Origin: Sipunculus nudus | Taxonomy: Eukaryota > Annelida > Sipuncula > Golfingiida > Sipunculidae | Direction: 5' to 3' | DNA length: 64,000 nucleotides | Assembly (NCBI GenBank): GCA_026874595.1 | Contig: CM049315.1 | Span: 16,823,664 to 16,887,663 of the forward strand | Part shown: piece after piece, positions 26,410-50,167 of the stretch | How positions within the stretch are numbered: the first letter of the stretch is position 1 | Layout: the number at the start of each line of letters is the position of its first letter | Translations under genes and position numbers: made by a program | Notes under the pieces: generated by a model | Databases searched by the model: none | Told to the model about the DNA's origin: nothing | Seen by the model: only the letters and a program-made list of their open reading frames with translations

Positions 26410-26465
<56 letters not shown>

Positions 26466-27586: not shown

Positions 27587-27592
27587 ATCAGC
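27587..27592. other. Left target-site duplication ATCAGC
   Basis: ATCAGC immediately before TACGGAAG; identical to 49707-49712. Confidence 0.85.
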
Positions 27593-27640
27593 TACGGAAG
27601 CGTATTGCTGCCACCTAGTAAAAGAAAAATAAATTATTTA
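27593..27640 (+). repeat. Left terminal inverted repeat, unique part
   Basis: Starts TACGGAAGCGTATTGCTGCC and ends AAATTATTTA where the 21-bp array begins. It pairs with 49659-49706, with a single A/G difference (CTAG here, CTGG in the complement of the right end). Confidence 0.9.
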
Positions 27641-27937
27641 TCTCGTACGTACGACATACTATCTCGTACGTACGACATACTATCTCGTACGTACGACATA
27701 CTATCTCGTACGTACGACATATTATCTCGTACGTACGACATACTATCTCGTATGTACGACATACTATCTCGTACGTACGACATATTATCTCGTATGTACG
27801 ACATACTATCTCGTACGTACGACATACTATCTCGTACGTACGACATACTATCTCGTATGTACGACATACCTTCTCGTACGTACGACATATTATCTCGTAC
27901 GTACGACATACTATTTCGTACGTACGACATATTATCA
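27641..27937 (+). repeat. Left subterminal array, 14 x 21 bp
   Basis: Fourteen units of 21 bp, each with the self-complementary core CGTACGTACG followed by ACATACTATCT-type sequence. Variation is mostly C to T at CpG, giving CGTATGTACG in three units, and C to T in ACATATTATCT. There are no spacers, so it is not a CRISPR. All the long frames across it (such as repeated SRTYDIL) are artefacts of a unit divisible by three. It is inverted relative to the right-hand array and likely forms transposase-binding sites (inference). Confidence 0.95.
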
Positions 27938-27939
27938 TA

Positions 27940-28783
27940 AATAGAGCTACAGATTAAACAACCATGCAACACACCCACACACACACACACATACATATAT
28001 ACATATATATATGTATATCTATTTGCCAGGAGCACAGCTGTGTTATTGTCTCTAGTGGGGCATTCTTGAGCTGGTAGAGAAAATATAATTAATGTGGAAA
28101 TAAATTTGGAAACGATACCATGATTGAATACAAGTGAAATTGTTCACCTGTGTCAAACGTGACGAAACAGCTGTCCGGGATGAAAAAAAATCGGTTTAAA
28201 TTAATGAGGTGACTTCAAGAAAGCACTCAATTAATTCCTAGGATAAACATGTACATAATAATTCATGAATATTCATGCAGCCCTTCCTGAGATAATCTGT
28301 ATATTGCGTCTGAATTAGGTAAACGAGTCTTATTTGGGTTTGCGAATTAATATGCCAGAACCAGTTGTAAAAAAATGGCCGAACAGATATGCATTGAACA
28401 GGGGTATAGTTCTCACCGCGCAGTCTTACTGGGTTCTTAAAATTTCCACATTTTTAGGCCCCAGGATATGCACTCTCAGTGTGTACTCTCCAGCTACCAT
28501 GCTCAGGTCACAAGAGTCTTTCACTCTAGTCATTCATTGTGTTAGAACTGCTGAATATGGCAACAGATGTTTTATTTGGAGAGCAACTGACCTTTTGAAC
28601 AACCATATTAGACAGTCCAGTTCGGCTGGAAATTTTGAATGTTCTCATACGAGTCTTTATACTAGTGTTTTTTTAACGTTTTTGAACAGTATTCTGCTTT
28701 ACGCCCCTTTTCTATATAAAGGGCTTTTGAACTTTCTTGATTTATGAAATAAAGAGTAAAAGATTGCTTTATATATATATATG

Positions 28784-28785
<2 letters not shown>
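27940..28785. other. Inner left flank of the giant element; no recognised gene
   Basis: Begins with a (CA)n run at 27970-27990. A 137-codon frame at 28334-28747 (MGLRINMPEPVVKKWPNRYA...) resembles no family I know and lacks supporting splice sites. AATAAAG occurs at 28748-28754 just after its stop. I leave it uncalled. Confidence 0.35.
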
Positions 28786-28874
<89 letters not shown>

Positions 28875-28880
28875 GAGAGA
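28785..28880. repeat. (CT)n(AT)n(AG)n hairpin-forming microsatellite
   Basis: A CT run at 28785-28802, an AT run to 28834 and an AG run to about 28880 make one compound tract. The CT and AG arms are complementary, so the whole can fold into a single long hairpin. Confidence 0.9.
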
Positions 28881-28969
28881 GAAGGAAGAGTTACTCTTCG
28901 TTGTAAAGTGCTCTATGGCCTACAGACTAGGCCAGAGCGATATAACACTGAAGAAAAACAACACTGTAA

Positions 28970-29017
28970 ATTCACAACAGTCTGTTTCACGGGATGCGAC
29001 CCGATCATCAGGTGAAT
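28970..29017 (-). ncRNA. Type I hammerhead ribozyme, minus strand
   Basis: Exact reverse-complement counterpart of 29034-29081, with the same stem I, CTGATGA core, stem II, GAAA and GTT triplet. Predicted cleavage lies between 28976 and 28975 on the minus strand. Because the two ribozymes face each other across 16 bp, a transcript through both could fold either into one long hairpin or into one active ribozyme. Confidence 0.82.
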
Positions 29018-29033
29018 ATTAGATTCTAACCAC

Positions 29034-29081
29034 ATTCACCTGATGATCGGGTCGCATCCCGTGAAACAGACTGTTGTGAAT
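29034..29081 (+). ncRNA. Type I hammerhead ribozyme, plus strand
   Basis: All core parts are present in order. Stem I 5' strand ATTCAC (29034-29039) leads to CTGATGA (29040-29046). Stem II is CGGG (29048-29051) paired with CCCG (29058-29061) around a six-base loop. GAAA follows (29063-29066). A three-pair stem III (ACA with TGT, GAC loop) leads to the cleavage triplet GTT (29073-29075). Stem I 3' strand GTGAAT (29076-29081) pairs perfectly with ATTCAC. Predicted cleavage follows 29075. The 10.1/11.1 position at the base of stem II would be U-U rather than the usual G-C, and the triplet is GUU rather than GUC; both may slow cleavage. The very short stem III is typical of retroelement hammerheads. 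Confidence 0.85.
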
Positions 29082-29102
29082 TTACAGTGTTGTATTTCTT
29101 CA

Positions 29103-29103
29103 G

Positions 29104-29169
<66 letters not shown>

Positions 29170-29175
29170 TATATG

Positions 29176-29224
<49 letters not shown>
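29103..29224. repeat. (AT)n microsatellite, imperfect
   Basis: About 120 bp of AT repeat with a few interruptions (TATAATATAT, ATGTATATACATAT). Confidence 0.95.
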
Positions 29225-29228
<4 letters not shown>

Positions 29229-30253
29229 TGCTCGCCATCTTCCGATCTGACCCATCTTAAGATGGCCTATTTACCGATCCCCAATGTCTGTAGGTCTCAA
29301 CTTGGCACAGGCCAATCTACCGGAGATTCATATACTCTTATTAATAGTTATACAATAATGTATTGTTAATTTATTAAATATTACTACATTATATCATTAT
29401 ATTTTATAGAATTTTATCATATCAACAGTAAAAACAGATAAAAAATATAATAGTTTAATATGACCAAATACAATATTTAAGATATAAAACCACGAAAGGT
29501 TTAAGACTTTCCAATCATCAACTAAATGGTACATTAGCCTTTGATAAAATATCTAACTATTATATCATTAACTTCAACGACGAAATTAAGAAATAAATTA
29601 TCAAGCTAGTCTACGTCACAATTTAGACGGGTTAATTACAAGTGGAATTTAGGACAGTCGATCCAATAAACATGTAGGTGTTTATCGGTAGATCAGGGAA
29701 TCACTAAAATATACAATATCGATATTACACGGGGATCATAGATGAAAATTTATTTAATCCTTTATTTTCTGTTTTGTTTATTCTGAGCTGTATGCATGCA
29801 TCGGTTTAGATCATGAACAGATATTAGGTCTGACACATCTGATGATCAAGGAGTTAATATATTCTACATTTTGTAAGTGAAAAATAAATCCGTCCATGAA
29901 AAGGGAAAAGATTTTCATAAAACCGCAAAAAGGAGATGTTACCATAGAAATGCGAAAGTAGAATTGTGCAGAAAGACTGGTATGAACCCTATCAACCACT
30001 GTTCAGAAATGCTGAATCACAGAATTGCTAAGCCTATATTATGTGTTTTCGTAACATCGTAACTCGTTTTGATACTTTCTTACCTGGCTTTGTTGTCGTG
30101 GAATAAATTAAAATATTTATATGAACCTTCTTATTATGGGGCAGCTTATTGTTTTTAGAGGAAGAACAGGACTGGGCATATATACCTTCATGAATTTTTC
30201 AGCAATGATCTACCAAGGGTACCGAACTCTTCAAAGTGTGTATCCGCTGAGTG

Positions 30254-30257
<4 letters not shown>
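29225..30257. other. No recognised gene
   Basis: The first 100 bp contain CCATCTTCCGATCTGACCCA and CATCTTAAGATGG, loosely reminiscent of the hairpin ends of the 1.6-kb TIR element and likewise next to an AT run; too diverged to call. Two short frames at 29811-30062 overlap on opposite strands and have no recognisable content. Confidence 0.35.

Positions 30258-30296
<39 letters not shown>
30258..30296. repeat. (AT)n microsatellite
   Basis: About 39 bp of AT dinucleotide, with a G run shortly after at 30336-30344. Confidence 0.9.
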
Positions 30297-30299
<3 letters not shown>

Positions 30300-30499
30300 G
30301 CGAGTGTTTGCATGTGGGTGGGTGTGGATGTGGAGGGGGGGGGTTACTCACTCTAGGCATTTTTAAGTTCCGAAGTCCGAGGCCTGTATGTTAAAATGCC
30401 TGCAGAGACATGCAGGACTGTGATAAAAAAGCCCGATTTAATCGGACTCTTTTTTTAACGGGAATCATGACCATGCCAGTTGAGCTGGGAGCAAGTCCA

Positions 30500-30545
30500 T
30501 TTATATCCGGAAGTCTTGACGTAGGACACGAAGAGAGCGGGAGCA
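30500..30545 (+). promoter_or_regulatory. Probable promoter-proximal region of the HECT gene
   Basis: An Ets/GABP-like CCGGAAGT at 30507-30514 and a CRE-like TGACGTA at 30517-30523 lie 22-40 bp before the first ATG. No TATA box is evident. The transcription start is not determined. Confidence 0.4.
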
Positions 30546-30570
30546 ATGTCGACATCTGACGCTGAGCAAA
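30546..30570 (+). CDS. HECT E3 ligase gene, coding exon 1
   Basis: ATG at 30546 followed by eight codons (MSTSDAEQ) and one extra base, ending at a strong donor (AAA/GTAAGT, GT at 30571). The phase-1 end joins exactly in frame with exon 2. The short first exon and exact phase match support the start. Intron 1 is about 5.46 kb. Confidence 0.8.
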
Positions 30571-32667
30571 GTAAGTGTAACGCTACACTGTTGTTTTCTG
30601 CTACTTATGTAAGTCATATGTTATGTATAGTTCAAAGTGTTAACATTTTTAGTTAATCGCTACTTCTGGGGACCGGCTTTCCAAACTTTGGTTGATTCTT
30701 TATAACTGGTATTTGTTTTTTATCATCAAATCAGTATCATGGCATTAATGGGGAATAATGCATGGTAAACCTGAGTGATAAACCATTTAGCAAAGCACCA
30801 CAGGCGTAAAATGAAATTACTTCAACCGAAAGGTAACCTTTAATCGTTTTCAGCACAGCTGACATCCAGCCAGACATTTATCAGAATCATTAAATGTAGT
30901 AATGATTGTAACTTTAGTTCATACATTTACTGATTTAGGTATGAACAAAACCATTTGGCATATTGGCACTTACTGTTATTACTGGAAACTAGGTTTCACT
31001 TGTATTAATTTTCAGATTACTAAGTTTTCTCTTTAAATGTGTTGCAGTCAATTTGAAATTTATTATTTAATCATTAGTTACCAATGACTGTTCCTTTTTC
31101 TGATGTTGCATAGCCTGATTATTTACAGTTGTCTCCAGTTGAGCAGATATTCTTAAAATTAGTTTTTCTTTATTTTGAACTATCTAGGGCTTCTTGGCTG
31201 ATGGACAAATTATATGATTGGGTCAGTCATGGACTTAAATTGCACAGACCGCCCTGATCTATGTGCAGGAGGTCACTCAGGATAAATTGTTCATGAAGGT
31301 AATGGGGATATATTCGAATTGTCTTTAAAGCTACACAAAGTAACATGAGTTTGGCATAAAATTTGAAAAACGACTTAGACTAAGTTAGAGTCAGATAACA
31401 GCCATTTCACCTTTAAAGAAAGAAATTTCACTTCATGAATAAAATAAGGCATAGAAAATGGGGGCTCAGTGTCATGTTTTTGCACTTTCCCCTGCAGAGT
31501 AAGTTGGTGTCAAAAAAGGGTCTCAGTAATTGTCATTACAACCTGAGGACACTGTTTTGCTCAAGACCAGGGTGAAAATACCTGTTTACATTTTTTTTTC
31601 TGGATTCTGGTGCAGTAAGTAACTAATTATATGCAGGATATCTTTTATAATATAGCAGCCCTTCATACCCTTACAGTTAGAGGGTTCCATTTGTGAGTGT
31701 GAGGGGGTAGGCCTTAAGGGCCACTATACATGAAATGATGGGCCTTTTTCATATATGAGTGGGTTCTATTTGATACTCAAAAAAAGCCAAAGCCACACAG
31801 AAAAAGCATAATTTAAATGCCATGTGCTTTTTGTCAGCAATTTATTAGAATAAACTCTTTAACAAAATCAAATTTACATAGTTGACACTGTGGAAGTCAC
31901 TGTGTGACAACCAAGGAAGTTTATTTAACACAAATTATAGCAATATTTCTATAGCCTTAAATGTTTTTCAACATTTGTACATAAAATGTTGAGCTCTGGA
32001 CTACCTTGTAGATATTTTGATTCTTAGGATGGATTGAAAATGGAATTATATTTAAACTTTACCCTAGTAACCCAAGCAGTATAAGGGTAAACAAGCAGCC
32101 TGGAACATGTAGACTGGCTGAAGTATTTTCTAACTAAAGCCTTCAGTCTATTGAAACTAAATGAGTAACTCTATAATAATTGTTCATGTTTTTATCTGAA
32201 AAAAAACCCATGAAAGCCTTTTCTTGTAAACATGATAAATATCACATAAATGTAATGTATAATAAAATTGAATGCCTGTATTCTCCTTGCTTCCTTACAA
32301 AGTAATTGAAGAAGTACAGGTACAAGTACCTGGCCCCAACCCTGTAAACAACACTCATTAACTGCTTCGGCAACCAACAGTTGACCCTGTATTCCAGTAT
32401 GAAAAACTTCTTCAATACAAAAGTTACATGATATCATATGTAATCATATAGAACTTCTAAGTCTGTTGGTGAAATACTTGACTGTAAACCTTATAAATGT
32501 CATTATTGTTTCTATATGCAGTGGATTTATATATAACTTTTCATTGCTGCTTATTCATCAGACGGTTTCAGACACAATCCTGTAACAAGTAATTGCTGAT
32601 GTTCTCACCAGCCTAAATGGATGTTTGAGACGGTCTGCTTTTTAATGAAGGCCTGCCTTTTATATCC

Positions 32668-33624
32668 TCAAGGGGTCCAATCACCTATAGACTAAAGGTT
32701 ATCCCTTGAAGCTTTCATAAAAATAGGCCAGATAACATGAATATCAACGCACAAAGGTCACTTGTTTTGTTTATATTAGAATGTTTATAATATGTTGGGG
32801 CCCTCAAAAGTTAAACAAATTCAACAAGGACCTCTTGCAGCAAGTTAGATATGCCAGAGCTTTGCAAATGTCTTTTTGCAACAAGTGACCTTTCTACCTC
32901 CACATATATGCAACCTACCTCCTTATGTTACATGTCTTTCCTGTTTGTCACCATTGCTATGTTTACAAACATGTTGTTGATAAACAAGTTCAGACAACCT
33001 TTACAAAGGCCTTATAAGAACTTTTCACAACCAAAATTACCTTTAGATCATTAATATATACATTCAAGAAGCCAGAAATCACATAAATTCTTTTTCAAAA
33101 GGTAGGTGATTGGGCACCTTTAAATTAAATTATTCATGAGAAAAATTTAAGAAACATAATCAGGAGCAATATTATGCCTATTTCACACTATCAGTGCACT
33201 TTTGCTTCATACAAAAGTTTCCAAGCAAAACCATTCCAGGACACAGTCTCAGGACCTCGCATACATCTGTTTAACAAAGTTGTTTTAAATCTGCCTGTTG
33301 GTAAACATAGTCCAACCATGTGTGTCTGTTTACCAGAGGTCCAGTTGTGAGATCCAACATGATGTTTTGGCCAGCAGAAACATGTATTACAATTATGGGC
33401 TAGGTCAGCCAGGGCATTTCCTGATTGACACGTGTTGTGGCTCCGCAATGCACATGACCCCACATGCTGTGTTTAAGTTGACACCTGTGATCGCGGCTGT
33501 ACCACTGTTTTTAACTTGTTTGCATGAGTAAGCAAATGATTTCAAGGCAATATTTTGGCAGGTACAAGTGAAGAAGCTACTTTTCATGGTACTTCAACAT
33601 GGGCTGAAGGTGATTGGGCCCTTT
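32668..33624. mobile_element. Dispersed element with CCAATCACCT-type ends
   Basis: The left end AAGGGGTCCAATCACCTATA and the right end AAGGTGATTGGGCCCTTT (33607-33624) are imperfect inverted repeats. A further GTAGGTGATTGGGCACCTTT lies in the middle (33101-33120), so two units may be joined. The left half matches 53840-54150 and the right half matches the reverse complement of 62777-63262. It has no recognisable coding capacity. Confidence 0.6.
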
Positions 33625-35539
33625 AAACTAATTTATAGTCTTTATGTCCTAACCATTTGCTTACGTTTTCCCTTATCTCATCATCAGTCATTTTGTTCTC
33701 ATGTAGTTTTAATTACTTTACATAAGCAGCAAATGCCTCAAATGCCTTTACCGTCTCCTTATCTCATTTTGTCCATTTTCTGGATTTTGGTCCCTTTGAC
33801 TTCTTCTGGCAATGGGCAAACAGGCCTTTCTGTGCCTGCATTCTTTCTAAATTTTGTTTCTAAATTATTGTTTTTTTTTCTTTTATCACTTTATTTTACA
33901 TTCTTTTTCTCTTCTTAATGTCATTCATATTCTATGTCTTAATGTCAGTACAGTAACTGATAATTTCCAATGTGGAATTCAAATTATGTATGTCCCTAAT
34001 GTAGAGCACTTTCTCTGCTTAACCCAATATAGGCTATAAGCAACACAGGCATACAAGTACAATCGTGAAAGGCCATTCAGACATTTAGTGGAATGATCCC
34101 ATCTACAAAACACACAGAAACAATGTGCTTAGTGCTAAGTACACTTTAAGTCAGTAAGGTTAAAAAATGGAATATGTAAGAATATGAATTTGTTAATCTA
34201 CATATAACAGGAGATGTAACAAAAATATATCACCGTCGCCTTTTGTAAAACATTCAGATTTCCTGTGGGTTTTTTTTTTTTAAATAAATCTTGCAGTGCC
34301 CCCCAAAAATCATTCAGACCTAGATGTATAATTAAATTTTCTAGAATAAATAAGTACAAATAAGGCCACAAGTTTTAAATATATTATATTTCAAACACAC
34401 TAAAACTGTTATTTCTTTCTATTTATTAAGGTATGTGTAAATCACATTTATCAAAAACAAAAGATTTTATGCAAACTGATAAATATCCTGACTAGGTACT
34501 GATCTCTCATCACAGTTCAAGAGAATGTATAAACTTACTTTAGTAAGAATGGTGGTGACAGTTTGTGTAACATAATAGTTGTTTAGCATATAATTCACAT
34601 GCCAATTATCACAGTCTACTTTATTTCAGTGACAGCTTTTCCCTTTACTCACACATTGATACACAGAATTTTACTTGTTCTGTTCAGTTCTGTTTGACCA
34701 GACCTTAATATGGAGGTGACCATTTTAATCCCCAATGCAAAGAACTTTATGTATATTATTAATGTAAATTTCCTGTTTACATTTATTGGTAAATCCATTG
34801 CAATACATATTGACAAATGCTCAATCACATTTTTATTTACAGTTCACACTTTTTATTCTAGACCCAGTTTAAGGTTACTGTAGAAAAACTAGACTGAAAA
34901 TTCAAAGTGCAGGTGACCAAAAATATCACAAAATTAAAATCCATGGTCCATTTTTGATCACAGACTGCCCACAGGACTTGAACTTTGTTTTTGCAAGATA
35001 AATATTTCCTCATAAGCAGTGGATATCATACTGGATGATTAATTTGGAATAGGTTAATGTTCAATGAAATGCCTGGTAAAAATTTAATAAACCTTAGAGG
35101 GGACTACCATTATGGTAAAAAGACACAGGGAAAATATATTGTTAGGCTAATTTTTGTCACTGAAACTGGAGATTTCATTACAACTTATGTTTATGCATTT
35201 TACAGATAATTTTTATGAGAGCAGACAAGGCATATTTGCCATTTCTTTTTAGTACACATTCAAGGTGTTTTAATGACTGGTTACCCTTCAGTGTGAAAGG
35301 GCCCTAATATGTTAAACAATTTAAATAGAAATTTTGCATTCATTAAAATTTTACAGAATTCAGCTGAGTGCTTTGGCCCATGGGACCCTTGTTAATGCTG
35401 TGTGAATAATTTTTGTCATCCTTCAAGTATTTTCAATACTGACTGCATTAGCTGAATTTAGAATCATTGCACATCTCCCAGTCAGTTTCTTTCCTATCCC
35501 CATTCCCTATCAACAGAGCCCGGGAGAAAACATGGTCAA

Positions 35540-35960
35540 AATATTTATTAATCTATGTGCACAGATTACTAATCCATGCGCATGAACTACTTAGCCCTGG
35601 GCACAAATTACTGATCCCTGGATATTGATTACTAATCTGTGCACATGAAATACTAATCCATGCGCACTGGTTAATAATAGGTCTGCCTATAGGTCTGCCA
35701 TCTTGTATGGCCTTGATTTAGTAATCCATGCACACCAGTTAGTAATCTGTGTGCACAAAATACTTATCCGTGCTCATAGATTGTTAATAGGTCTGTCTAA
35801 AGGTCCGCCATCTTGTTTATCCCTGTGCATGGATTACTTATCTGTGGCAACAGATCAGTAATCCATGCCCACGGATTTGCAATTTTTGCTCAGGGATTTG
35901 TAGTTCATGCTCATGGATTACTAATCCTTGTGCACAGATTAGTAATCCGTAGCTTATCAT
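35540..35960. repeat. Degenerate tandem array upstream of HECT exon 2
   Basis: Units of about 22-24 bp on the theme ACTAATCCATGCGCACAGATT recur at least a dozen times. A longer block, TAATAGGTCTGCCTATAGGTCTGCCATCTTGT, occurs twice about 130 bp apart (near 35668 and 35786). The array ends about 70 bp before the exon 2 acceptor. Confidence 0.75.
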
Positions 35961-36029
35961 CTGTGTGCACGAAAAATATGCATATTTCCAGATAAGGTAA
36001 CAACCCGGTTTTTTTCTCTTGACTTGTAG

Positions 36030-36109: not shown

Positions 36110-39100
36110 GTAATGTTTGTTTTATCTTCTTTCAAATATAATTATAACTTGTATGTATAAGGTAATGAATTAAGGTAATGTGAAAATTTGAAAAAATAAT
36201 TGCGGATAATTGGCTATTATAAAAAGAAATAAAATTTTTGATTGATACCCATGTTTGATGAGATATGAAGATATAGTAACATGTCAGTATCTCTTGCTTT
36301 CACAGGAAGGGAAACATTGATTTGGCAATGTCTGTCTTGTCTTACATCTGATCTTCTGCAAAGCTGGTAACTGGATCCCTTTTTAGCCCACATCCTTTTG
36401 ACTGATCCAACAATCTGACCAGTGTCCATTAACTTTTACCATGTGAGTGGGATATTGCAAATAGAATTCATGACAGGAAGTTTATTTCTTCAGTGCAGAT
36501 GCATATTAACAAATTCTAAGACAAGTTTGAAGATGGATGACCTTGACCTACTTTTTAAGGTCACAGAGCTAATAAGCAAACCTGTGAGCCTACATGATCA
36601 TATGGTGCTGTATGTTGTCTGTATGTTAACCTATACTTTCTCAAACATGGCAGAAGCAAGCATCACTAAATTTTATGCAAAAATCAGTCATCTGTAGAAC
36701 TCATTGAACTGATTTTTTTTCTTTCTGCCTTGACATAGATAGGAAAAAGGTAAAAAAATTTGAAAACTTTTCTTCTCTAAAACTTTAAAATAAGCATATT
36801 ACAATTACAATCTCAGAAACGGCAGGAGCTACCATCACCGTATTTCATACAAATGTTGATCACATGAGTCATATTTCAAATTGAGATCATCAACCGTTTT
36901 TGCTTCCATGGGGGTCATCAGTCAATAACCAATAATATCTCAGGAACAGCAGGAGCTAGCATTACCAAAATGTATGCAAAAAACATATGTCAAATGTTGT
37001 GAGACTGAGCACAAGAATGGTGGCAGCGGCTAAAATAATTTTTGCTGAGTTTATGTGCCTGCTGATTTTTCAGGAGTGATTTGACATATCAGCCTTCTGT
37101 GTGAAATCTGGCAGGGATTGATTGACTGAAGATTTTGGAAAGTGTTGTCATGTACTGGAAACTGGTGGCGGCACCTGTTATCCTTTTCTTGTTTTTGTGC
37201 CATTTAATACCCCCATCATTGCCACTTAACAGTACTGTGAGCATTATAAGTCAAAAACTAATGGACAGATTTCTTTCATATTATGAATATACATAGACAT
37301 GGGTTATGGGATGATGTATATTTAAATTTGGGTCATAACCTTTCCTATGAGAGTGGCCTTGACCTTGAATATATCATATATGGTAAAAATCACACTAAAT
37401 CATAAATATCTCAATAAGGGATGCATGCATTGGTCCAAAAACCAAATTGACCGAAGATCTTGGAAAGCTTTGTCTTTTGCGGAGCACAGGTGGCGCCACC
37501 TGTCTTTCTCTTGTTTTTGTGCCTTTTAATACCCCATCATTGCCACTTGACAGTACTGTGAGCATTATAAGTCTAAAACTGATTGACAGATTGGGCTGAA
37601 ATTATGCATGTACATTGAACTTGGATACCTCCATCTTGTATTTAAGACTGGTGTTGCCATCTGCTATTGTTTTCCGTGGTGTCTGTCTGTACATATGCTT
37701 TGGGTGAAAATTGCTCATATATCTGGAGTGGTCCAAGGTATTGGTCTGAAATTTGAAATGTCCATGCATCTCAGAAATTTTTCTCGTAATCCTGACAGGT
37801 GGCACCACCTACCTTCCTGTTTTTTTTTAATAAATAAATTTATGCCCTTTTCTGAAGAGTGATTTGCACTATTGGCCTGAAATTGTGCCTATCCATAAAT
37901 CTTGGACTCCTCCATCTTTTACTTAAGACAGGTGGCACCATCTGCAATCATTTGGCGCGGGCTTCCACCTGTGCTTTTGGTAAAAATTGCTTATATCTCC
38001 AGAGTGGTTCAAGGTATTTGTCTAAAATTTGGCATGTCCATCCATCTTTGAAAGTTTTCTCATAAACCAGACAGGTGGCGCCACCTACCTTTCCATTTTT
38101 GTAGAATGAATTAATGCCCTTCTCTGAGGAGTGGTTTGCCCTATTGGCTGAAATTGTGCATATCCATAGATCTGGGACTCCCCTATCTTATACATAAGAC
38201 TGGTGGTGCCATCTGAAATCATTTTGCTGTGGCGTCCATCTGTACATGTGCTTTTGGTAGAAATGGCTTATCTCCAGAATGATTCAAGGTATTTGTCTGA
38301 AATTTGGCATGTCCATCCATCTTTGAAAGTTTTCTCATATAACAGACAGGTGGCGCTGCCTACCTTCCCTTTTTTGTAGAATAAATTAATGCCCTTTTCT
38401 TAGGAGTGATTTGGCCTATTGGCCAGAAATTGTGCATATCTATAGATTTTGGACTCCTCCATCTTGTACATAAGACTGGTGGCACCCTCTGCAATTGTTT
38501 TGCCATGGCGTCTATCTGTATATTTGTTTTAGATGAAAATTGCTCATATCTGAGGAGTCCTTCAATGTGTTGGTCTCTAATTTGGCATGTACATCCATCT
38601 TGGAGAGTTTTCTAGTCAACCAGACAGACTGGCGCCACCTACCTTACTATTTTTATAGTATAAATTTATCCCCTTTTCATAAGAGTGATTCTCTTTATTG
38701 GCCCCCATATTTGGTGAAAAATATTGTTTCTCAAGTGGATAGATGGAAGAAACCATAGTCGCTTGCCAAATGTCAGTATATGCTGCTGAAGATGGGTGTA
38801 CTATTCTTAAAGGGGGGGGGGGATTTATTGTCTGGCGATACTATGGCACCTGCGGTGCCAAGAAATATCTAGTTATGCTTCTGTTGCTTGGGATGCTTCA
38901 CTCCTATACCTTTATACATGACTGATACATCACTGAATCAAACCATAACATTTTTGTTCAGTCATTTTAATACAATTTGAGTAAGTTAGTTTTACATATG
39001 TATTGTTTATATATTTTACAGAGCAGAAATGATGCTACACATACTAACAGCCGGTTGTCTTGACCCATGGGTATTTTGTTTATGCTTGGTGTGTTGTCCC

Positions 39101-39217: not shown

Positions 39218-41158
39218 ATTGATCGGCACACAGTCCTGTTAATGGATGATCAACAGCTGGAAACATATTTGCCTTGCTTAGGGGATAGGCTGGCTGTCAG
39301 ACACTACTTTGGCTTAAAAACAAAGGAGACAACACAAAGCAAGAAACAGTCACTATTTGAAAAACTTAGAAGAAAAATGAAATTGAGGAAAAATGAGGCA
39401 TCAGATGATGAAACTGCTAGCAGTGACACAAGTAAAAGGGCAAAATCAATAAAGGGAAATAGAAATGCTTCAAAGAAAACCAGAAGATTGCAGCTGGGAT
39501 GGATTCATGAGGGGAAACAGGTTAGAACTAGAAATGGGGGAGGAACAAGAAATGTAGAGGTGGCCAAAACAGCAGACAAAAGTGTCCTTTTACAGTTATG
39601 CAAAGACCTTTTTTTCCCTCACGGCAAATCAAAGAGATGGTCTTGGGATGATGTCTCATCTGACATATTAGACTTTCAGGAATCGCCCCTTTCAGATACA
39701 GTCACTGTAGGGGAAGTATATGAAGAAGTGAAAATGGGCATTGTCCGTTTTTATCTGCACACAGAAATTAAGTCCAGTACCAGTGATCAGACAAACACAA
39801 ACTCTGATTCTGAAACAAAAGGAAGCTCCGAGAGCTATGCTGGTTTTACCAATGCAGACTTTGAGGAGCAAGATGACACTGAGCCATGTGCCAGCACATC
39901 AGGCATATCAAGCACTATTCAGTTTGGTCCATTTAGCTCCTTTTCTGATGACTCTCTTGATGATACCCTTCCTTTGACTTCGTTCATTCCACAGGAGACC
40001 TCAAAGGATGTTGTTATGACTGCAACTGATGATAACGAGCAAGAAGTAATAATAGAGAACAGAGAAACTGTGTATCATGAAGGCATTCTTGAAGAGTCAA
40101 CAGATGAGCATCACTGGCAAGAATCACCAAGAAGCCCCACCCCCCAACCTTTAATTGAAGGCAGTCGATTTACAGTGAGAATTCATAGAACAAACCTACT
40201 AGAGGACATGATTTGCCAATTTAAAGATCCAGATATCATTGATACAGAGGTAAAATTCTTGTTTGTTGGTGAATCTGGGTGTGATCAGTCAGGAGTTTCA
40301 CGTGAAGCATACTGTGCTTTTTGGGCTGAATTTTTTATCAGGTCAGCGGAAGGTGAAGAAACTCGGGTACCTGCACTCAATACAAGAATGCAGGATGAAG
40401 AATGGAAGGCTGTTGGGAGAATTCTGGTGAAAGGTTACATTGACCATCACTTTTTCCCATTAAAACTTTGCTTTGGATTTACAGTGGGGTTGATCCAAGG
40501 TGAGACAGCCCTATCTCCAGAAAGGTTGCTGGATTCTTTCTTGATTTATTTAAGTCCAACAGACAGAGCTGTGCTGAGATCAGCAATGGTTGGAAATATG
40601 GACAAAGAGACTGAAGAAGACTTTATTGAGATTTTAGATCGATTTGGTTGCAAATCTATACCATCAAAAGAAGACTTGAAAAGTAAAATAATGCAGATAG
40701 CACACAAGGAAATTATCCAAAAACCAAAGTATGCACTGGACAAGATGGCAGAAGTATCAAGGTGTCCATTACTGGCCCATTTACCCACTACAGAATCATT
40801 AATTTATATGTACAGTGAACTGAAACCAACAGTGAGAAAACTTCTCAAACTGTTACATGCAACACCAACCAACCAGGATGAGGATCGGTGTTTGAAGTTC
40901 CTCCAACAATTCATACAAGCACAAGATGACACCTCTTTACAGAGGTTTCTCCGTTTCCTAACTGGGTCTGACATAATTTCCTGTAACAGGATTGAAATTT
41001 CATTTACAACACTAGAAGGTGTAGCCAGGAGGCCAGTGGCTCACACCTGTGGACCAACACTGGAGCTGCCAGCAACCTACACCTCATATCCTGAATTCCG
41101 TCATGAAATAACAGCCATTTTATCGAATGAAGAATCCTTTAAAATGGATATAGTGTGA
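39218..41158 (+). CDS. SAM-like/HECT-domain E3 ubiquitin-protein ligase, main exon
   Basis: The third exon adds 646 codons to a 681-aa protein. The acceptor TTTTAATTTTAG ends at 39217; the upstream exons show that translation does not begin at the internal ATG 39242. Residues about 9-62 form a SAM-like domain (LLMDDQQLETYLPCLGDRLA). Residues about 127-218 match the block found in bivalve and fish proteins of this type (QVRTRNGGGTRNVEVAKT, then LFFPHGKSKRWSWDD). Acidic, serine-rich sequence follows, then a HECT-type domain at about 349-681 (VGESGCDQSGVSREAYCAFW). The presumed thioester cysteine is in RRPVAHTCGPTLELP, about residue 646. The protein should transfer ubiquitin from an E2 to unknown substrates. 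Annotation pipelines often call such proteins G2/M phase-specific E3 ligase-like. The frame is intact and lies wholly inside the giant transposon, convergent with its transposase gene. Confidence 0.9.
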   Translation: MDRHTVLLMDDQQLETYLPCLGDRLAVRHYFGLKTKETTQSKKQSLFEKLRRKMKLRKNEASDDETASSDTSKRAKSIKGNRNASKKTRRLQLGWIHEGKQVRTRNGGGTRNVEVAKTADKSVLLQLCKDLFFPHGKSKRWSWDDVSSDILDFQESPLSDTVTVGEVYEEVKMGIVRFYLHTEIKSSTSDQTNTNSDSETKGSSESYAGFTNADFEEQDDTEPCASTSGISSTIQFGPFSSFSDDSLDDTLPLTSFIPQETSKDVVMTATDDNEQEVIIENRETVYHEGILEESTDEHHWQESPRSPTPQPLIEGSRFTVRIHRTNLLEDMICQFKDPDIIDTEVKFLFVGESGCDQSGVSREAYCAFWAEFFIRSAEGEETRVPALNTRMQDEEWKAVGRILVKGYIDHHFFPLKLCFGFTVGLIQGETALSPERLLDSFLIYLSPTDRAVLRSAMVGNMDKETEEDFIEILDRFGCKSIPSKEDLKSKIMQIAHKEIIQKPKYALDKMAEVSRCPLLAHLPTTESLIYMYSELKPTVRKLLKLLHATPTNQDEDRCLKFLQQFIQAQDDTSLQRFLRFLTGSDIISCNRIEISFTTLEGVARRPVAHTCGPTLELPATYTSYPEFRHEITAILSNEESFKMDIV

Positions 41159-41990: not shown

Positions 41991-42299
41991 TTATTTTTGA
42001 GTTCTTGTTTTTGTATGTGCCTTTTACAAAATGATACACTTTTATATGGATAAACACTAACTATTTTTGCCTCATCATGAGAAAATATCCTTTGTCAAGA
42101 AAGATATTTAATGTTAACATGTCGGACTTTTGCGGTAGCTATATTACAAATATGTTCAGCTGGGCTTCCAAGAATTTAGACTATAATTACCTAAATTATC
42201 ACTGTACTACTGCGTTTCTGATATAACTTTTATTATTGAATAACTATTGGTATAGAAACCTATCATATTGAAAACATTAAGATTTGTAGAGAATCTTGG

Positions 42300-42720
42300 A
42301 GCTTGTGCGATGAGGCATTACATTAACCCATACTTTCACAAAAATCGGCAGGAGCTACATCGCCAAATTTTACGCAAAATCAGTCGCATGTCAATCTTTT
42401 ATCTGATCAGGCTCATTTTGGGGCCAAATGCAACGATTTAACTTTTACAGTGAAAAAGCTAAAAAAATATAAATCTTCCCAGAAACAGTCAAGCCAAATT
42501 GTTAAATATTGCACAAGTTATTCCAGAAACAAACATTCTCAGGTATGATAGGTTCGGTGATTTTTGGCCGAATTACAGAAACTGAAATAAGCCAAATAAG
42601 CATTCTACGATTACAGTTTCAGAAACTTCAGGAGGTAGATTTACCAAATGCAAAAATCAGTCACATGTGATCCTTAAAACTGAGGTATTGGTGTCGCAAC
42701 CACCATCGACTGAATTTTTT
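42300..42720. repeat. GGCAGGAGCTAC repeat units
   Basis: AAAATCGGCAGGAGCTACAT...CAAATTTTACGCAAAATCAG at 42340-42390 and a looser unit at 42605-42670 match those at 36640-37000 on the other side of the HECT main exon. Confidence 0.6.
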
Positions 42721-43600
42721 TTTATTTTGTGTTGAAACTTGCATCAACCTGTCTTTAACAGGGGAAGAGTAATTTTTGCCTCTTTCGGCGACTACTTTGC
42801 CATCCCTAATATATGTTTGTGAAAGTATAGTTAAAACATTTTATCAGCCTACTGTAACAAACAGTTTTATCTGATATTATTTTCATTTCATTTAATTTCC
42901 ACTTATATTATGTGAGCAAGGTATTTATATGGTAAATATTTCCAAATCTGTTGGTTCTGTTTTTTTAAGTACTTTTATTAGCTATGAAAATGTAATTCAA
43001 GCAAAGGGCACCTCTGCTTTTTTTATTGCGATGCTTAGCACTCTGATAATTGCAGTTATGTATCTAAAATGACTGAATTTTCAAAAAAATGTAAATTTGA
43101 CATGATAATACTTTTTGTAAGGGAGCAGAGACTTGAGGTTGAGTTAAAAACTTAAAAAAAGAGTGATAAGGAATCTGTTAATCCCAGTAGACGATCATCG
43201 AATATCATTACCTATTTTTACCAGAATCATTCATTCTGTTGTCTAGTAATCCGTCTTTGTCAATTTTTCCCCGTACAGATGATAACTTTGCATTTTTCAA
43301 TGGAGAGACGGCACCCTAAGGTGTACACACTGTAATTAATTAATGTCTTTTATTCAGTTGTTATTGATTTTTACTGGAAAATAAAATGAAAAAAAAAACA
43401 TGCGATTTGTTCAACATTTCTGTTGTTTGGAAAAGATTTTGATGTATGCTCTTTAATCATAATAAAGCAGTACAGTCATTCAGTTTCACAGATACAAGTA
43501 TATCAACTATGCTTCGAGATTCATGAGTCCTTTTCCTAGACGGGAGATCCTTCATTTACTCAAAAGGTTTTAGATTATAGCTTAGTTGACTGTAAGTCAT
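42720..43600. other. No recognised gene
   Basis: AT-rich sequence without open frames of note. AATAAAG at 43459-43465 could be a distal polyadenylation signal. Confidence 0.35.
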
Positions 43601-44480
43601 CTGAGTTTATTCATCAATCTTTGTTCGTCGTCCGTCCAGGTGTCGGTTAACAGAGCACAAATCAAAACCTTTGGACTGAGACTTTTAACTGTTTATCTTT
43701 GGAGGTCCTGGGCAAATCTCAGAAAATTGGAATTAGGTCATGGTGACATTTATATTGTGAGCTATCTATCGAAAAAATGATTTTTAGCAGTCAGAAGGGG
43801 TACAATTGTATCAGTTAGGCCAAGAATCTTTTAACATATAATTTTGGTAGGTCTTGAATAAATGTGCTCGGAAACCTGGAATAAGATTCCGGTGACCTAT
43901 ATTCTGCAAATAGCGGGCAAAGAGCATGAATTGAACACCCTGAACATCAGATGGACACCGATTGTGTATACGTTGGGCCTTGAATCTTCTAACGCAGCAT
44001 TCGGAGGGGTTCTTGGCAAATCATGGTGAATATTCGCAGGATATGTGAAAGAACATGATTTGAGAACTCCATTAACAGTTAGATCTAGAAACTTCAAACT
44101 TCATTAAGATCCAGGGAGGTCGATGTAAAAATTCCTTTGAAACCTGAAACATGCATGTCACTGTGACTATATTGTGCGAGCTGTGTGTGAGAGAACATGA
44201 TTTTAGAGCCCTTTTACTTAGACACGAATCATGGGAGGTCGACCAAGAAACTTTTAATTTAATTCCGATCCTTGGAGCTCCCTGTAAGTAAGGTTAATGT
44301 GACCAATATTCTGGGAGCTATGTGAAAGAACTTAAGTTGAGCACCCTATGATTAAGATGGACACAAATCATGGGGTGGACATAGAAACTTCTAATTAATC
44401 CTGGGAATTCCTCAATTTTCTTGACAACCCACAATTAAGGTCAATGTAACCTGTGTTCTAAAGCCTTGGGACAAAAGTCA
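43600..44480. repeat. Degenerate ~140-160-bp tandem units
   Basis: Phrases such as GGTCATGGTGACATTTATATT, GGTGACCTATATTCTG, CACTGTGACTATATTGTG, TTAATGTGACCAATATTCTG and GGTCAATGTAACCTG recur with spacings of roughly 140-270 bp. They alternate with GAACATGATTTxxGxxCCCT and GGGAGGTCGA blocks. This is an old, heavily mutated tandem repeat. Confidence 0.6.
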
Positions 44481-45260
44481 TGATAATGAGCACTCTTTAG
44501 TTCATTCTACCCATTGTTCATGGTTTCTGAACAAATATTTTTCACCAGATTATAACATAATTTGTTTTTTTCTTTTCTTCTACCTTTTCCTTCTGATTAA
44601 ATTTACTAATATACAAACCAACCAGCTGACCGACTAAACAACCTTCAAATAATAATAATAATAATAAAACAGACGTGTACTGGTAAACTATTTGCAAAGT
44701 CTGTTGTATTTCATATATCTTCCTGTGCTTTTCCATGCGACTGAATTGTATTGTTCTATAGCTTGTGAAGTTTACTTTATCGTATAAAAAATTATACGTA
44801 AAAAAACGCACTAGATCTATGCAAATTCTAGTTTCCGCCTAAAACTCCTAACAACTGCAGAGTCTAGGGTTTCCAAAGATTTCTGTTTGAAGGCCCATAA
44901 GCTCTAGGGTTCAACAGTCCTCAATGTCGAGAAGAGTTAACAGTGCAACCATCAAGTTGGTGAGCCGTGAACCTTTCTCTCGGCAGGGTTTCGTTTATTA
45001 CCTGCATTATCGTACCACACTTAAAATTTATCAGGGTTTAGGTAATATTTTGGTGGTCAAAAATGTTGGCGGAGGAATGCAGTCCCTAACTGCTTTTTTA
45101 GTTTTAACAACAACGCAGCAATGTTATTTTCTGTTTTCGTGAACTCAAAATCATGATATACTGCATGTTGTATTTAAAATTATGTTGATTGTTTTTCCAA
45201 CTGGTTCCTGGTCGCTGACAGCTGATATTTACAAGTTCCATTTCATCGTGTAATTGACAT
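44480..45260. other. No recognised gene
   Basis: The 72-codon frame at 44924-45142 and the minus-strand frame at 44542-44811 match nothing known. An (AAT)n run lies at 44648-44667. Confidence 0.35.
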
Positions 45261-45267
45261 AGTTTAG

Positions 45268-45600
45268 ATGGACGTGGGGGAATCGGAATGGGAATTTATC
45301 CTGGATATGATAAAAACCGGCACCCTCGGCAACTTAAAACAATCCTTGTCTGAGCTACACCAGTTTATGCATAAACGGTATCTTGGACCCGGCAAATTAC
45401 ACCAGGCATATGAAATGCTTAATGTTGGACGATGCTGGATTAAGACTCTTTTATACACAAATGAACACAGCCAAGTCCTCGCAGTATCAGGCTATAGTCA
45501 CTGACAAAATGCGTTCATCCATTTTGATAAAAGAAAATTTGATTAAATGGTGTTTTGTCCTGAGAATATTTTGGTTTCTGCCGATATTTCGTTCTGAAAC
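45268..45600 (+). pseudogene. METTL24-like methyltransferase terminal exon, frameshifted
   Basis: An acceptor (GACATAGTTTAG) ends at 45267 and the frame opens MDVGESEWEFILDMIKTG, then LKQSLSELHQF. This is the C-terminal part of methyltransferase-like 24 type proteins, where intact members read like DVESAEW and FEIH. Near 45420 the homology moves to the +1 frame, continuing LMLDDAGLRLFYTQMNTAKS, which fits the next family block. A single indel therefore breaks the exon. No upstream exons were found on this strand. It lies between the convergent 3' ends of the two intact genes of the giant element. A sequencing error is an alternative to a true pseudogene. Confidence 0.6.
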
Positions 45601-45604
45601 CTGC

Positions 45605-46588
45605 TTACTCCTGTGTACAAGTTGTTATAAGCTTGCCCCGGGCGCGATCAGTAGCGCAAAACAAACATAGTTCACTTGCCAAGTTGCAATCGTGCCCCGC
45701 AACCTTACAAAATAAATTTGTTCAAGCTTTCAACTGGGGTTTCGTCTTTTTTTCTTCTTTCATATTTTGTGTCTTGTCTTGGAGTTCTGGCGAACTGGCA
45801 AGATCGGACCTCGGATCACCGTCAGTCCGTTAACTTTAAGTGTGGCTGCGATTATTTACCAGGGCTTTGAGGATTTTCACAAAACCCACCATTAATATTT
45901 ACCAGTAGATTATCTCGCCCGAGTTCGAATATAGAAAAAAAATATCTTTGAAGGGCCTCTGGTTTAGCTGTGTTCTGTTGGCGGCTAATTCGTTTGTCGA
46001 ACCGATCAAAGGGTAAAATCGGAAGCTCAGGGCAAGGTCTGCTACTTTGATGGTTCCTAAAAATATGCTACTCTCAGCTATTTTTTTATTCGTTAAACTT
46101 AATCATTTGACGCGATTTCTTCAGTTCAAGCTATGTTTATTTTTGGTGAAATGCAGGCTACAATATATGCAAACTTATAATATTATTCATAATAAATTAT
46201 GAAGGTAATAAAGTCGAAACAATAACTCATGTTCGATGAAAACAAACTTTAACAAACAACGATCAAACATATGTACACACGGTACAAAATGATAATCTTT
46301 CAGCACATGTTTTGTTATTTCAACAGATCCACTTATTTTGTTTTGACAATACTTATAATGTTGCCAGGAGAAAATACAGGTGTTTTGAAAATTGGTCCTC
46401 TTTTTTTTCGTACAGTTTACAGTTCCTCTTTGTACCAATGTTAAGCTTTAAATGTTTAAGAATTGTTCTGAAATTGCCATTATATTGAACAACAAATCAG
46501 TCTCATCGAGATGAACTCACTGGTCCAGTTGCTAGTGTAGGCCAGGAGTTACTTGGTAGTGGAACATTGATTATTACACAAAGCTTCC
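45605..46588. other. No recognised gene
   Basis: The spacer between the methyltransferase-like exon and the integrase gene's last exon. The short frames at 45633-45870 are not recognisable. A polyadenylation signal for the minus-strand gene is not obvious. Confidence 0.35.
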
Positions 46589-46915
46589 TTATAAATTGCT
46601 AATTATTTCGTTTCTCAGGAATCCGTACAGGTGAACTGCATCATAAGGACTTTCTGGAGGCCGTATATCAGCTTCTGTCATCAGGACACAACACAGGTTG
46701 AATACGGTTTCGTCACATGGGAAGGAGCCTTTCGGGACATACTCGTCTTTGCAAATTTGTATTTGAAGGGCTGAAACTTCACAGAGATGATTTCTTGCTC
46801 CATATCGTTCTGGAAGACAATACATGATAGATGGCCGTCCATGTGGAGCCGCCTGGTTTCTACTTGGACGGAGACGATGATGGTTCCACAACTCAGTAAT
46901 TTTATCGAGGTCATC
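46589..46915 (-). CDS. Integrase-core (DDE) transposase gene, coding exon 2
   Basis: On the minus strand an acceptor TATGTTTTAG (ending at 46916) is followed by 108 codons beginning DDLDKITELWNHHRLRPSRN and ending at TAA. Phase 0 joins exactly to exon 1 (GMVQ/DDLDK). This is the conserved C-terminal part of the family: a basic RPSRN motif, HGRPSIMYCLPERYG, and a cysteine-containing tail (FPCDETVFNLCCVLM). Exon 1 read alone would stop 14 codons past its donor, so splicing is needed for the full 386-aa protein. Confidence 0.85.
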   Translation of the reverse strand, partial: DDLDKITELWNHHRLRPSRNQAAPHGRPSIMYCLPERYGARNHLCEVSALQIQICKDEYVPKGSFPCDETVFNLCCVLMTEADIRPPESPYDAVHLYGFLRNEIISNL

Positions 46916-46978
46916 CTAAAACATACGAAATATATGTACAATTACAAGGAATGCATTTAGGATTTGTGTCCTTTAATT

Positions 46979-47059
<81 letters not shown>

Positions 47060-48539
47060 AACGTGGATAGTCTCATAAGTTTATAAACTTCGGAATAAAA
47101 CTAGAAAACGAGCAGTGGACAACCGATTACATGTATCCGCCAAATGTGCCTGACATGACATGACTCCAAATTTTTGGCATCACAGATGGCTATGAAACTC
47201 CTCATATTAGTGCAATTTTCACCAAAAAAAGATCTGCAGATGACTACAAGATGAAATGGTCTATGATGGATCTACGCTATGTGAAAACGAATAACCTAGG
47301 CTGATACATCCATCCACTCCTGAGATATGAGCCATTTTCATATTGTACTAGTCTTGAGCATCAATTTTTTCTACGAAAACACGAAGGTAGGTGGCGCCTC
47401 CTGTCTGGTCTACAAGAAAACTCTCCAAATTGGATGGACATAACAAATTTCAGACCAATACATGGAACCACTCCTGAAATATGAGTCATTTTCACCCAAA
47501 GGAAACGGACGAACGGACGCCATTTAACGGGATGCCGCCACAAGTCTTTAGTATGAAATGGAGGTATCCAAAATCCATTTGCATACATGACTTTAGGCCA
47601 GTACGGCAAAACCATTCCTGAGGAAAGGGCATCAATGTATTCTACGATAACGGGGAGGTAGGTGGCGCCATCTGTCTGATCTATGAGAAAACTCTCGAAG
47701 ATGGATGAACATGCTAAATTTCAGACCAACACAGTGGACCACTCCTGATATATGAGTGATTTTCACCCTAAGCGGACGCATAGATGGATGCCCCGCAAAT
47801 ACGATTACAGATGGTGCCACCAGTCTCGAGTACGAGATGGGGAGATCCAAGATCCATATAAATGGATATGCACTATTTCAGCACAATACATTGAACCACT
47901 CCTGAGATATGGGCTGCTATGACTAAGACATCCAGTTTGATACTGCACGAAAAGAACTAAAGATGGCGCCACCAGCCTTTGTAACGCTCGAGTTCACATG
48001 TTAGCGGATAAGTATGCTGGGTTTCGGAAAGATCGGTCTAAGGGTCTCAGAGGAGTTCTCCGGAAACGAACGCGGCGAGGTCGGCAGTACAGGCGAGAAA
48101 ACTGGCTGATACAATTATATAAAAATAAAAGTACAATTTTGTAACTTTATGCAAAAACCTATATAAAGAAACCTTTACCTATTGATAAGTGTCGTATTGT
48201 TGCATTTGTGACTGACCTCAGGTAAATTATATCTCTGATCAAACATATATGGTATGTAGGCAATAGGGGAGACTTACATAAGCAGCATGGCGTGTGTATT
48301 GTTGTAATGAAGAAGACGTATGACGTTAAATATACATCATTCGAACAATAAATTTGATTTTGTTTTAATGGGCAATGTCATACTGTTGCCTACTTTATGA
48401 CTATAAATAAATGTCTAGGTCTGTTTTGTACACAGCCATGCATGTAAACATAGAAGATGTAGTTTTGTGCTAAATTAATTACTTTATGATGGGATCAACA
48501 GGCCTTTTTTCTCAAGACTGCAAATAATAATTCCCTTAC
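46916..48539 (-). other. Intron of the integrase gene
   Basis: It holds an (AT)n tract at 46982-47057 and inverted copies of the ~277-bp repeat at 47340-47990 (GGTGGCGCC near 47391 and 47661, GATGGCGCCACC near 47963). The sequence at 48000-48530 shows nothing recognisable. Confidence 0.7.
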
Positions 48540-49373
48540 CTGAACCATTCCCATGAAGCAAAACTGGATCAAACTCTTATCCAAGAAGTCGCCTGTAAAT
48601 TGATCTGTGTCCTTTAGGTCTTGGAATAAGTTCATCCAGAACTGTATCTTCTGCTTTCTCAGAAAGGCCCACCATGATTCTATTCTCTGGTTGTGATTGC
48701 TTGATCCGTAAAGAAAAGGGGTTTTGGCATAATCATCTTCATGTTCATATCTTAAATATCTCTGCATGTTTTCCATATATCCATTTTCTGTGCCCAGATC
48801 ACTTCTTATCCGTTTGGGAGAGCCCATTCTTGACTCAACAGCCTCCATATAGTAGCTTGCTATAACTGCAGGATCACTGTTTGTGTGGTATGCTTCAAGC
48901 CAGATTACATATCTTGAGAATCCATCAACAGCTCCGTTTATACATATACCGTATGGCTTCAGTTTATCATAGGAGTCAACATGCCATAAGAAATCGGGTC
49001 CCGGATTGCGATACATTCTTCTCCTCAATCTGTTCCCTTTTCTGAGATGAATTCCAATCGGGTCAATTATATGTAGCAAAATTCTTATCGTTTCCTGGGT
49101 CACTACAAGGCCCTCTTGAAGACACCTTAAGTGCATAAGTTTATATCCATGCAAAGATCCAATATTCTCGATTTCATTGGTCAGGAAAAGGCCGACAGTC
49201 AGTAAATCAGAGAAATGTTTACGGCGATAAAGTCCAGCTCTTGTCAATATCCGTCTGAGAGTGCGAAGGCTAAGAGAGAAGCCATCAGTGTGTAGACTTT
49301 GCAAAATTTCGGTATGGTTAAAGCCAAACCTGAAATACACTTCGAGGATCTCCTCCAAATCGGTCTCCGCCAT
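48540..49373 (-). CDS. Integrase-core (DDE) transposase, IS3EU-like, coding exon 1
   Basis: 278 codons from ATG 49373 to a donor GTTCAG/GTAAGG at 48540. Residues 1-55 look like a helix-turn-helix region (NHTEILQSLHTDGFSLSLRT). The catalytic core has D133 (WHVDSYDKLKPYG), D192 (RSDLGTENG) and E232 (NQRIESWWAFLRK), spaced D-58-D-39-E, in the order of rve/IS3-type integrases. All three acidic residues are intact. The family, often annotated as integrase core domain-containing protein, is widespread in cnidarians, molluscs and fish. Its role would be to cut and join the transposon ends in the nucleus. The start lies 58 bp inside the right-hand 21-bp array, with an AACAAAATGGCGGAG context resembling a YY1-type initiator. 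Spliced with 46589-46915 it gives 386 aa. Confidence 0.9.
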
Positions 49374-49431
49374 TTTGTTCTTAATGACAAATCAAGGGGC
49401 CTATACAACTTAAGCCCGGAACTAAGTAGCA
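49374..49431 (-). promoter_or_regulatory. Probable 5' UTR/promoter-proximal region of the transposase
   Basis: Only 58 bp separate the start codon from the 21-bp array. On the minus strand it reads CTTAGTTCCGGGCTTAAG and then runs to the ATG. No TATA box is visible. The array is the only substantial upstream sequence inside the element, so it probably contributes to promoter function (inference). Confidence 0.45.
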
Positions 49432-49663
49432 TATGTCGTACGTACGAGATAGTATGTCGTACGTACGAGATAGTATGTCGTACGTACGAGATAATATGTC
49501 GTACGTACGAGATAATATGTCGTACGTACGAGATAATATGTCGTACGTACGAGATAATATGTCGTACGTACGAGATAGTATGTCGTACGTACGAGATAGT
49601 ATGTCGTACGTACGAGATAGTATGTCGTACGTACGAGATAGTACGCGTACGTACGAGATAAAT
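49432..49663 (-). repeat. Right subterminal array, about 11 x 21 bp
   Basis: The same 21-bp unit as at 27641-27937, inverted. Ten regular units are followed by an outermost one with a small deletion (GTACGCGTACGTACG). The internal variants (GATAGT/GATAAT) come in blocks, suggesting local amplification. Confidence 0.95.
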
Positions 49664-49706
49664 AATTTATTTTTCTTTTACCAGGTGGCAGCAATACGCT
49701 TCCGTA
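49659..49706 (-). repeat. Right terminal inverted repeat, unique part
   Basis: Reads TAAATAATTT inwards-to-outwards on the plus strand and finishes AATACGCTTCCGTA. It is the complement of 27593-27640 with one substitution. Confidence 0.9.
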
Positions 49707-49712
49707 ATCAGC
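49707..49712. other. Right target-site duplication ATCAGC
   Basis: ATCAGC immediately after CCGTA; identical to 27587-27592 and one base different from the empty site ATCAGA at 21520-21525. Confidence 0.85.
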
Positions 49713-50165: not shown

Positions 50166-50167
50166 TA

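Follow-up and report, generated by a model that had tools for sequence, protein, structure and literature searches.

A stretch of 64,000 nucleotides from Sipunculus nudus (NCBI GenBank assembly GCA_026874595.1, contig CM049315.1, positions 16,823,664 to 16,887,663 of the forward strand; below, the window) was analyzed to follow up an earlier note made from the letters alone. Judged from its sequence, the window very probably contains a giant IS3EU-type DNA transposon that was active recently and has a two-gene core consisting of a transposase gene and a gene for a HECT protein. The element comprises positions 27593-49706 (22,114 bp; C10:16851256-16873369), begins with TACGG and closes with CCGTA. 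Two of its features are surprising: a HECT gene that converges with the transposase gene, and palindromic arrays whose sequence is specific to the family. The target-site duplication (TSD), the terminal inverted repeats (TIRs), the arrays and the interrupted segment have the following positions:

27587..27592, no strand: left TSD ATCAGC, directly outside the left end
27593..27640, plus strand: left TIR, 48 bp, beginning with TACGGAAGCG, one mismatch to the right end
27639..27936, plus strand: left subterminal array, 14.2 units of 21 bp, palindromic core TCGTACGTACGA
49432..49660, minus strand: right subterminal array, 11.0 units of 21 bp, inverted relative to the left array
49659..49706, minus strand: right TIR, pairs with the left TIR
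49707..49712, no strand: right TSD ATCAGC, directly outside the right end
20186..22057, plus strand: paralogous copy of the flanks without insertion, ATCAGA at the site (from alignment)
26198..27592, plus strand: interrupted segment, left part (from alignment)
49713..50206, plus strand: interrupted segment, right part, terminal portion an AT-rich simple repeat (from alignment)

The two TIRs are equal at 47 of 48 positions in inverted orientation, and the earlier note had described these ends, the inverted arrays beside them and the flanking ATCAGC in the same way. It had also placed an uninterrupted copy of the flanking segment at 19866-22030. Such a copy with ATCAGA exists, but the alignment spans 20186-22057, with its start at 20186 rather than 19866. 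As the note had anticipated, the alignment of the joined flanks (26198-27592 plus 49713-50206) with this copy is continuous across the junction. Of its 1989 columns, 1607 are identical and 217 contain gaps, and 165 of the 1772 aligned sites carry substitutions (9.3%). The flanks are about 9% diverged, whereas the TIRs differ at 1 of 48 positions and two copies of the element at 0.56% of the aligned sites (see below), and therefore, the view that the element inserted after the flanking segment had duplicated is supported.

The whole genome (1,426,538,692 bases in 153 contigs) was searched for further copies, and the transposase region yielded one near-identical match elsewhere, on C17. The C17 copy (C17:22613458-22635653) has the same first and last base as the copy in the window and a length of 22,196 bases. 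The two copies differ at 123 of 22,045 aligned sites (0.56%) and by 23 gaps, some of which reflect altered array units and simple-repeat runs. Because the C17 copy has identical boundaries and its own TSD, AGTTCT, the 22-kb interval is one mobile unit, as had been proposed. The earlier note had named an assembly join inside the interval as something that would refute a single element, but the presence of the same unit at two loci with different flanks and TSDs makes such a join unlikely. A 3.7-kb interior probe (42800-46500) gave full-length matches at the window and C17 only, with 40 of 6,758 first-look candidates scored, so that weaker copies may be missed. C6:83690570-83691105 was considered as a third copy and rejected, as it is a broken relative with no HECT match in the 36 kb examined there.

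The two genes of the element are convergent:

39218..41158, plus strand: main exon of the HECT E3 ubiquitin-ligase-like gene, 646 codons open, acceptor-like AG directly upstream
46589..46915, minus strand: transposase exon 2, with the stop codon
46916..48539, minus strand: transposase intron, GTAAGG...TTTTAG, predicted from the sequence
48540..49373, minus strand: transposase exon 1, with ATG, helix-turn-helix-like N-terminus and integrase core (D133, D192, E232)

The transposase gene lies at the right end on the minus strand, has 386 codons in two exons and standard splice signals (donor CAG/GTAAGG, acceptor TTTTAG), and starts 333 bp from the right tip. Its frame is open in both 22-kb copies with one amino-acid difference; the codon comparison gave three synonymous and one nonsynonymous change, too sparse for selection tests. 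The intact two-exon frame in both copies supports the autonomy that the earlier note had inferred. The integrase core it had recognized was matched by Pfam rva_4 (3.3e-25). D133, D192 and E232 were placed by eye, with 39 residues between the latter two, yielding a DD(39)E arrangement. A single Cys is present before D133, indicating a DDD/E core without the HHCC zinc module. Comparison of the transposase exon with PDB gave weak, chance-like matches only (best E 0.018, interferon gamma). AlphaFold models made without alignments were set aside, as the mean predicted local distance difference test values were 38.5 for the transposase exon and 33.8 for HECT.

The HECT gene was absent from the earlier note, as were the short-element family and the sister families treated below. 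Its frame has 646 codons, whereas no frame exceeded 192 codons when the element was shuffled 100 times. The HECT domain covers approximately residues 310-643 and has a cysteine in an AHTC context in the C-lobe. Pfam recognized it with 3.7e-8 (best stretch 538-643), and matches in PDB, which begin at residues 310-318, were to NEDD4-like chains (best 1.3e-4) and to HUWE1 (best 4.6e-4, over 318-636). The AHTC is aligned with that of a NEDD4-like chain, but this part of the alignment scores 4.5 bits and is by itself too weak to count. The domain and the context of the C-lobe cysteine suggest that the protein is an E3 ligase.

Both genes also occur in a sister family of 8.4 kb. Its C6 copy (9261046-9269454) has TACGG..CCGTA ends and CATAAC on both sides, and its C2 copy has CGCACC on both sides and has lost the final TA of the right end. 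The two copies are 99.3% identical over 2.6 kb and differ in the flanks ahead of the shared stretch; the identity starts nine bases before the tip TACGGAAGCGTATATAGG, and these nine bases are a chance extension. The end pattern of this family was found 6+6 times genome-wide, versus 0+0 in the control. The sister family carries a convergent pair of a transposase (52% identical) and a HECT protein (39% identical), in which D133, D192 and E232 and the HECT cysteine are retained. The transposase start is about 270 bp from the tip, and this proximity in both families (333 bp in the 22-kb family) shows that the transposase gene belongs to the element end. The array palindrome is TCCGCCCGGGCGGA, versus TCGTACGTACGA in the 22-kb family. 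The tip TACGGAAGCG, the two genes and the presence of 21-bp arrays are thus shared by both families, and the array sequence differs. Separately, inverted 21-bp repeats of the CCGCCYGGGCG kind are present in a decayed state at positions 10790-11400 of the window, one side showing TAGGACATAAGTGAAAAAAT and the other ACCAATATCCTA; this region looks like a relic of the TCCGCCCGGGCGGA-array sister family.

The association of the two genes was quantified genome-wide. Merging same-strand matches within 12 kb reduced 84 matches of HECT homologues to 44 loci, and clustering reduced 108 matches of transposase homologues to 72 loci. For 38 of the 44 HECT loci, a transposase locus was present within 60 kb, and at 37 of the 44 the two were convergent, while about 0.27 HECT loci would be expected within 60 kb by chance in any orientation. 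Both 22-kb copies are among the 37 convergent loci, and a single C7 region (8.33-8.36 Mb) accounts for two of the 37. The convergent HECT-transposase pair seems to form a core shared by a group of large transposons. One multi-copy family with a 559-codon HECT frame (C2:43576350, C5:30166819, C6:87688934, C9:70773400, C3:6719178, C4:74484833) has, besides the convergent transposase, an extra transposase-like piece (approximately residues 24-163 of the query, with stops), 513 bp past the last HECT match and in HECT orientation.

The ends of the 22-kb element are also present at many other places. The genome search that the earlier note had suggested yielded, in addition to the C17 copy, 391 forward and 388 reverse matches to a 23-base end pattern with at most three mismatches. 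Reading the pattern backwards reduced these 779 matches to 0 and 1, so that chance does not account for the end pattern. From the match positions listed (C1 to early C4), 20 facing pairs on C1 and C2 with sizes of 2.0-8.4 kb were sampled. A perfect 6-bp TSD was found in 17 of the 20, a one-base difference in two (L043, L045) and no TSD in one (L051). The interiors of the short elements resemble one another (171 of 190 pairs with an aligned stretch of at least 500 bp, median identity 84.8%), whereas with the 22-kb interior they share short stretches only, of 64-97% identity and none above 374 columns among the matches listed. Long frames are absent from 19 of the 20; the exception, L050, has frames of up to 864 codons, which look like those of a nested retroelement.

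At least one array unit was found in the right end of all 20 short elements and in the left end of 19, or, with the 22-kb copies included, in 22/22 right and 21/22 left ends. The units usually start about 50 bp inside the tip. As ends and arrays are common to the short elements and the 22-kb copies, they are the likely cis-requirements. The 22-kb copies are the likely transposase donors of the short elements. In L046 (1,954 bp, perfect TSD), the left end has been reduced to about 24 bp of the TIR, counted from the tip, with no array unit, and this may represent the minimum required at one end.

The elements were compared with known systems. IS3EU transposons, which form one lineage with GingerRoot, are described as having TA..TA ends, a TSD of usually 6 bp and a DDD/E core without HHCC (Kojima and Bao 2023, PMC10045372), and the earlier assignment to IS3EU agrees with this description. 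TACGG..CCGTA ends were found in both 22-kb copies and in the C6 sister copy, and the C2 sister copy lacks the last TA. The 6-bp TSDs are ATCAGC, AGTTCT, CATAAC and CGCACC and are perfect in 17 of the 20 short elements, and the transposase has the DDD/E core without HHCC. By their ends and TSDs, the elements fit the IS3EU superfamily. In contrast to IS3EU and GingerRoot as described in PMC10045372, the 22-kb element has a length of 22.1 kb, a HECT gene and 21-bp palindromic subterminal arrays. The TET-bearing IS3EU elements of rust fungi, as described in PMC12730594, also have TAYGG..CCRTA ends, TIRs of more than 30 bp, a 6-bp TSD and a second gene opposite to the transposase gene. However, their second gene encodes an alpha-kinase and TET/JBP lies between the two, whereas the 22-kb element has HECT and no TET domain was found in it. 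Styx of Zymoseptoria likewise combines an IS3EU-related transposase with additional genes, but it is fungal, has four frames, and most copies are 7,927 bp long (PMC10853768). Comparison with Styx and the 8.4-kb sister family partly bears out the earlier statement that the element greatly exceeds typical members in size. A literature search (Repbase and subscription journals outside its scope) found no paper that combines IS3EU and HECT and none relevant on HECT and transposase, and the accessible part of a giant-transposon review (PMC6431247) mentions neither IS3EU nor HECT. Two oyster satellites, CgiSat35 and CgiSat47, are tabulated as IS3EU-like in PMC8268682, and arrays like the 21-bp ones might seed satellites.

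Several observations weigh against the reading of the element as a transposon with a transposase-HECT core. Seven of the 44 HECT loci have no convergent partner. Among the 72 transposase loci, 22 lack a HECT locus within 60 kb, and 18 of these 22 score below 80 bits. Since paired loci are in many cases copies of each other, there are fewer independent cases; grouping by hand resulted in 18 groups in addition to the window family. Across 34 loci, HECT and transposase correlated weakly and non-significantly in their similarity ranks (rho 0.24, p 0.17), and the same correlation for the 18 hand-made groups gave rho 0.35 and p 0.16; strict co-inheritance is not shown by these values. The termini were read for two coding families only, the 22-kb and the 8.4-kb family. 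In addition, the HECT frames of the window and C17 copies differ by seven nonsynonymous and two synonymous changes, a ratio that does not show recent purifying selection. This prevalence of nonsynonymous changes and the non-significant correlation would agree with HECT being incidental cargo with no role in the life of the element, which does hold captured host sequence at 44838-45810. Nevertheless, incidental cargo is an unlikely explanation, given that the same convergent layout with a transposase occurs at 37 of 44 HECT loci and that the bounded 8.4-kb family keeps HECT including its cysteine.

Other explanations concern the unit itself and its enzyme. Since several hundred family ends exist, two short elements about 22 kb apart could have formed a composite, the outermost ends of which mobilize everything between them. 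This is very improbable for the window. A single TSD spans the whole 22 kb, inner ends are missing, the family 21-bp array occurs 0 times in the interior of either copy, the C17 copy has the same span, and the transposase starts near the tip in both families. The earlier note had regarded family ends on separate short elements with their own TSDs at these loci as a refutation of a single element; short elements with such ends occur elsewhere, but here and on C17 the ends bound one 22-kb unit with its own TSD. A different transposase of the genome might move both the 22-kb copies and the short elements, so that the 22-kb copies would not be donors, and clustering did give 70 further transposase-like loci. 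We regard this as quite unlikely, because the homologues that come next by score, at 52% identity, are members of a family whose array sequence is different, and the one closer relative, at C6:83690k (about 75% identical), is broken. The large size and the integrase-like core would also be compatible with a virus-derived or Polinton-like element. The lack of the HHCC module is a trait common to IS3EU and Polinton (PMC10045372) and does not decide between them. The six-frame Pfam scans of 28000-49421 revealed, beyond transposase and HECT, only sub-threshold matches (e.g., RSRP, 0.0063, in a simple repeat) and no polymerase, capsid or protease domains at E up to 0.1. Polymerase and capsid genes are defining for Polinton/Maverick elements. 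Relatives of the element were not found in viral contigs either, and a viral or Polinton-like nature is scarcely credible.

We therefore favor a giant IS3EU-kind transposon with a transposase-HECT core, and the following mechanism is proposed. The transposase would bind the TACGGAAGCG tips as well as the palindromic 21-bp arrays, excise the element and reinsert it via a 6-bp staggered cut. The same transposase would mobilize several hundred short elements that share only the ends and arrays. The HECT protein would be a second core gene product rather than random cargo, most likely an E3 ligase that marks either the transposase or a host factor, e.g., one involved in the silencing or repair of transposon DNA. 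Nested repeats and a captured fragment of a host gene would have enlarged the two-gene core, and the resulting 22-kb element would have moved as a single unit. We hypothesize further, at about even odds, that a large IS3EU-type group has HECT as an obligate second gene for anti-silencing or transposase tuning, and that each family switched its 21-bp array and kept the TACGGAAGCG tip, in a co-evolution of enzyme and site. If this is true, many invertebrate HECT genes of unknown role may be transposon genes.

A bounded, young giant transposon with two copies and likely dependent short elements makes the size limits and cis-requirements of cut-and-paste transposition directly testable. That this transposon group manipulates the host ubiquitin system is suggested by its repeated association with a ubiquitin ligase, which also provides a possible origin for HECT genes whose role is unknown. 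The constant tip and the family-specific arrays, seen in two families, would form a natural series for the change of transposase specificity.

The interior of the element contains several further features:

35545..35955, plus strand: degenerate repeats, mostly with 21-bp spacing, one unit with the palindrome CATGCGCATG
37590..38690, no strand: 276-bp tandem repeat
43575..44022, no strand: dispersed genomic repeat, ~70-72% identical matches at many places
44838..45810, plus strand: host-locus fragment, three pieces collinear with C7:62837041-62838746, 72-75% identical

The repeats at 35545-35955 look like an old array of a related family. Inverted relatives of the 276-bp repeat are present at 47358-47914, inside the transposase intron. 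The host fragment includes a degraded host-gene exon (45268-45504), which over up to 57 codons matches members of a gene family that forms clusters on C7 and C2 and has open frames of 108-134 codons (11 matches besides the two element copies). The motif of this exon may be METTL24-like; Pfam gave only YkyA (E 0.11). The size of 22 kb seems to result from the two-gene core, 8.4 kb in the sister family, plus accreted DNA including the host-gene fragment. The host gene clusters with this exon are at C7:62822162-63044892, C7:15348628-15391546 and C2:95362949-95471182. Outside of the element, tandem repeats of 27/53 bp (TCTTGTTGTTAGGTCCTCGGCC) with a strong AT skew occupy about 1 kb at window positions 6789-7864.

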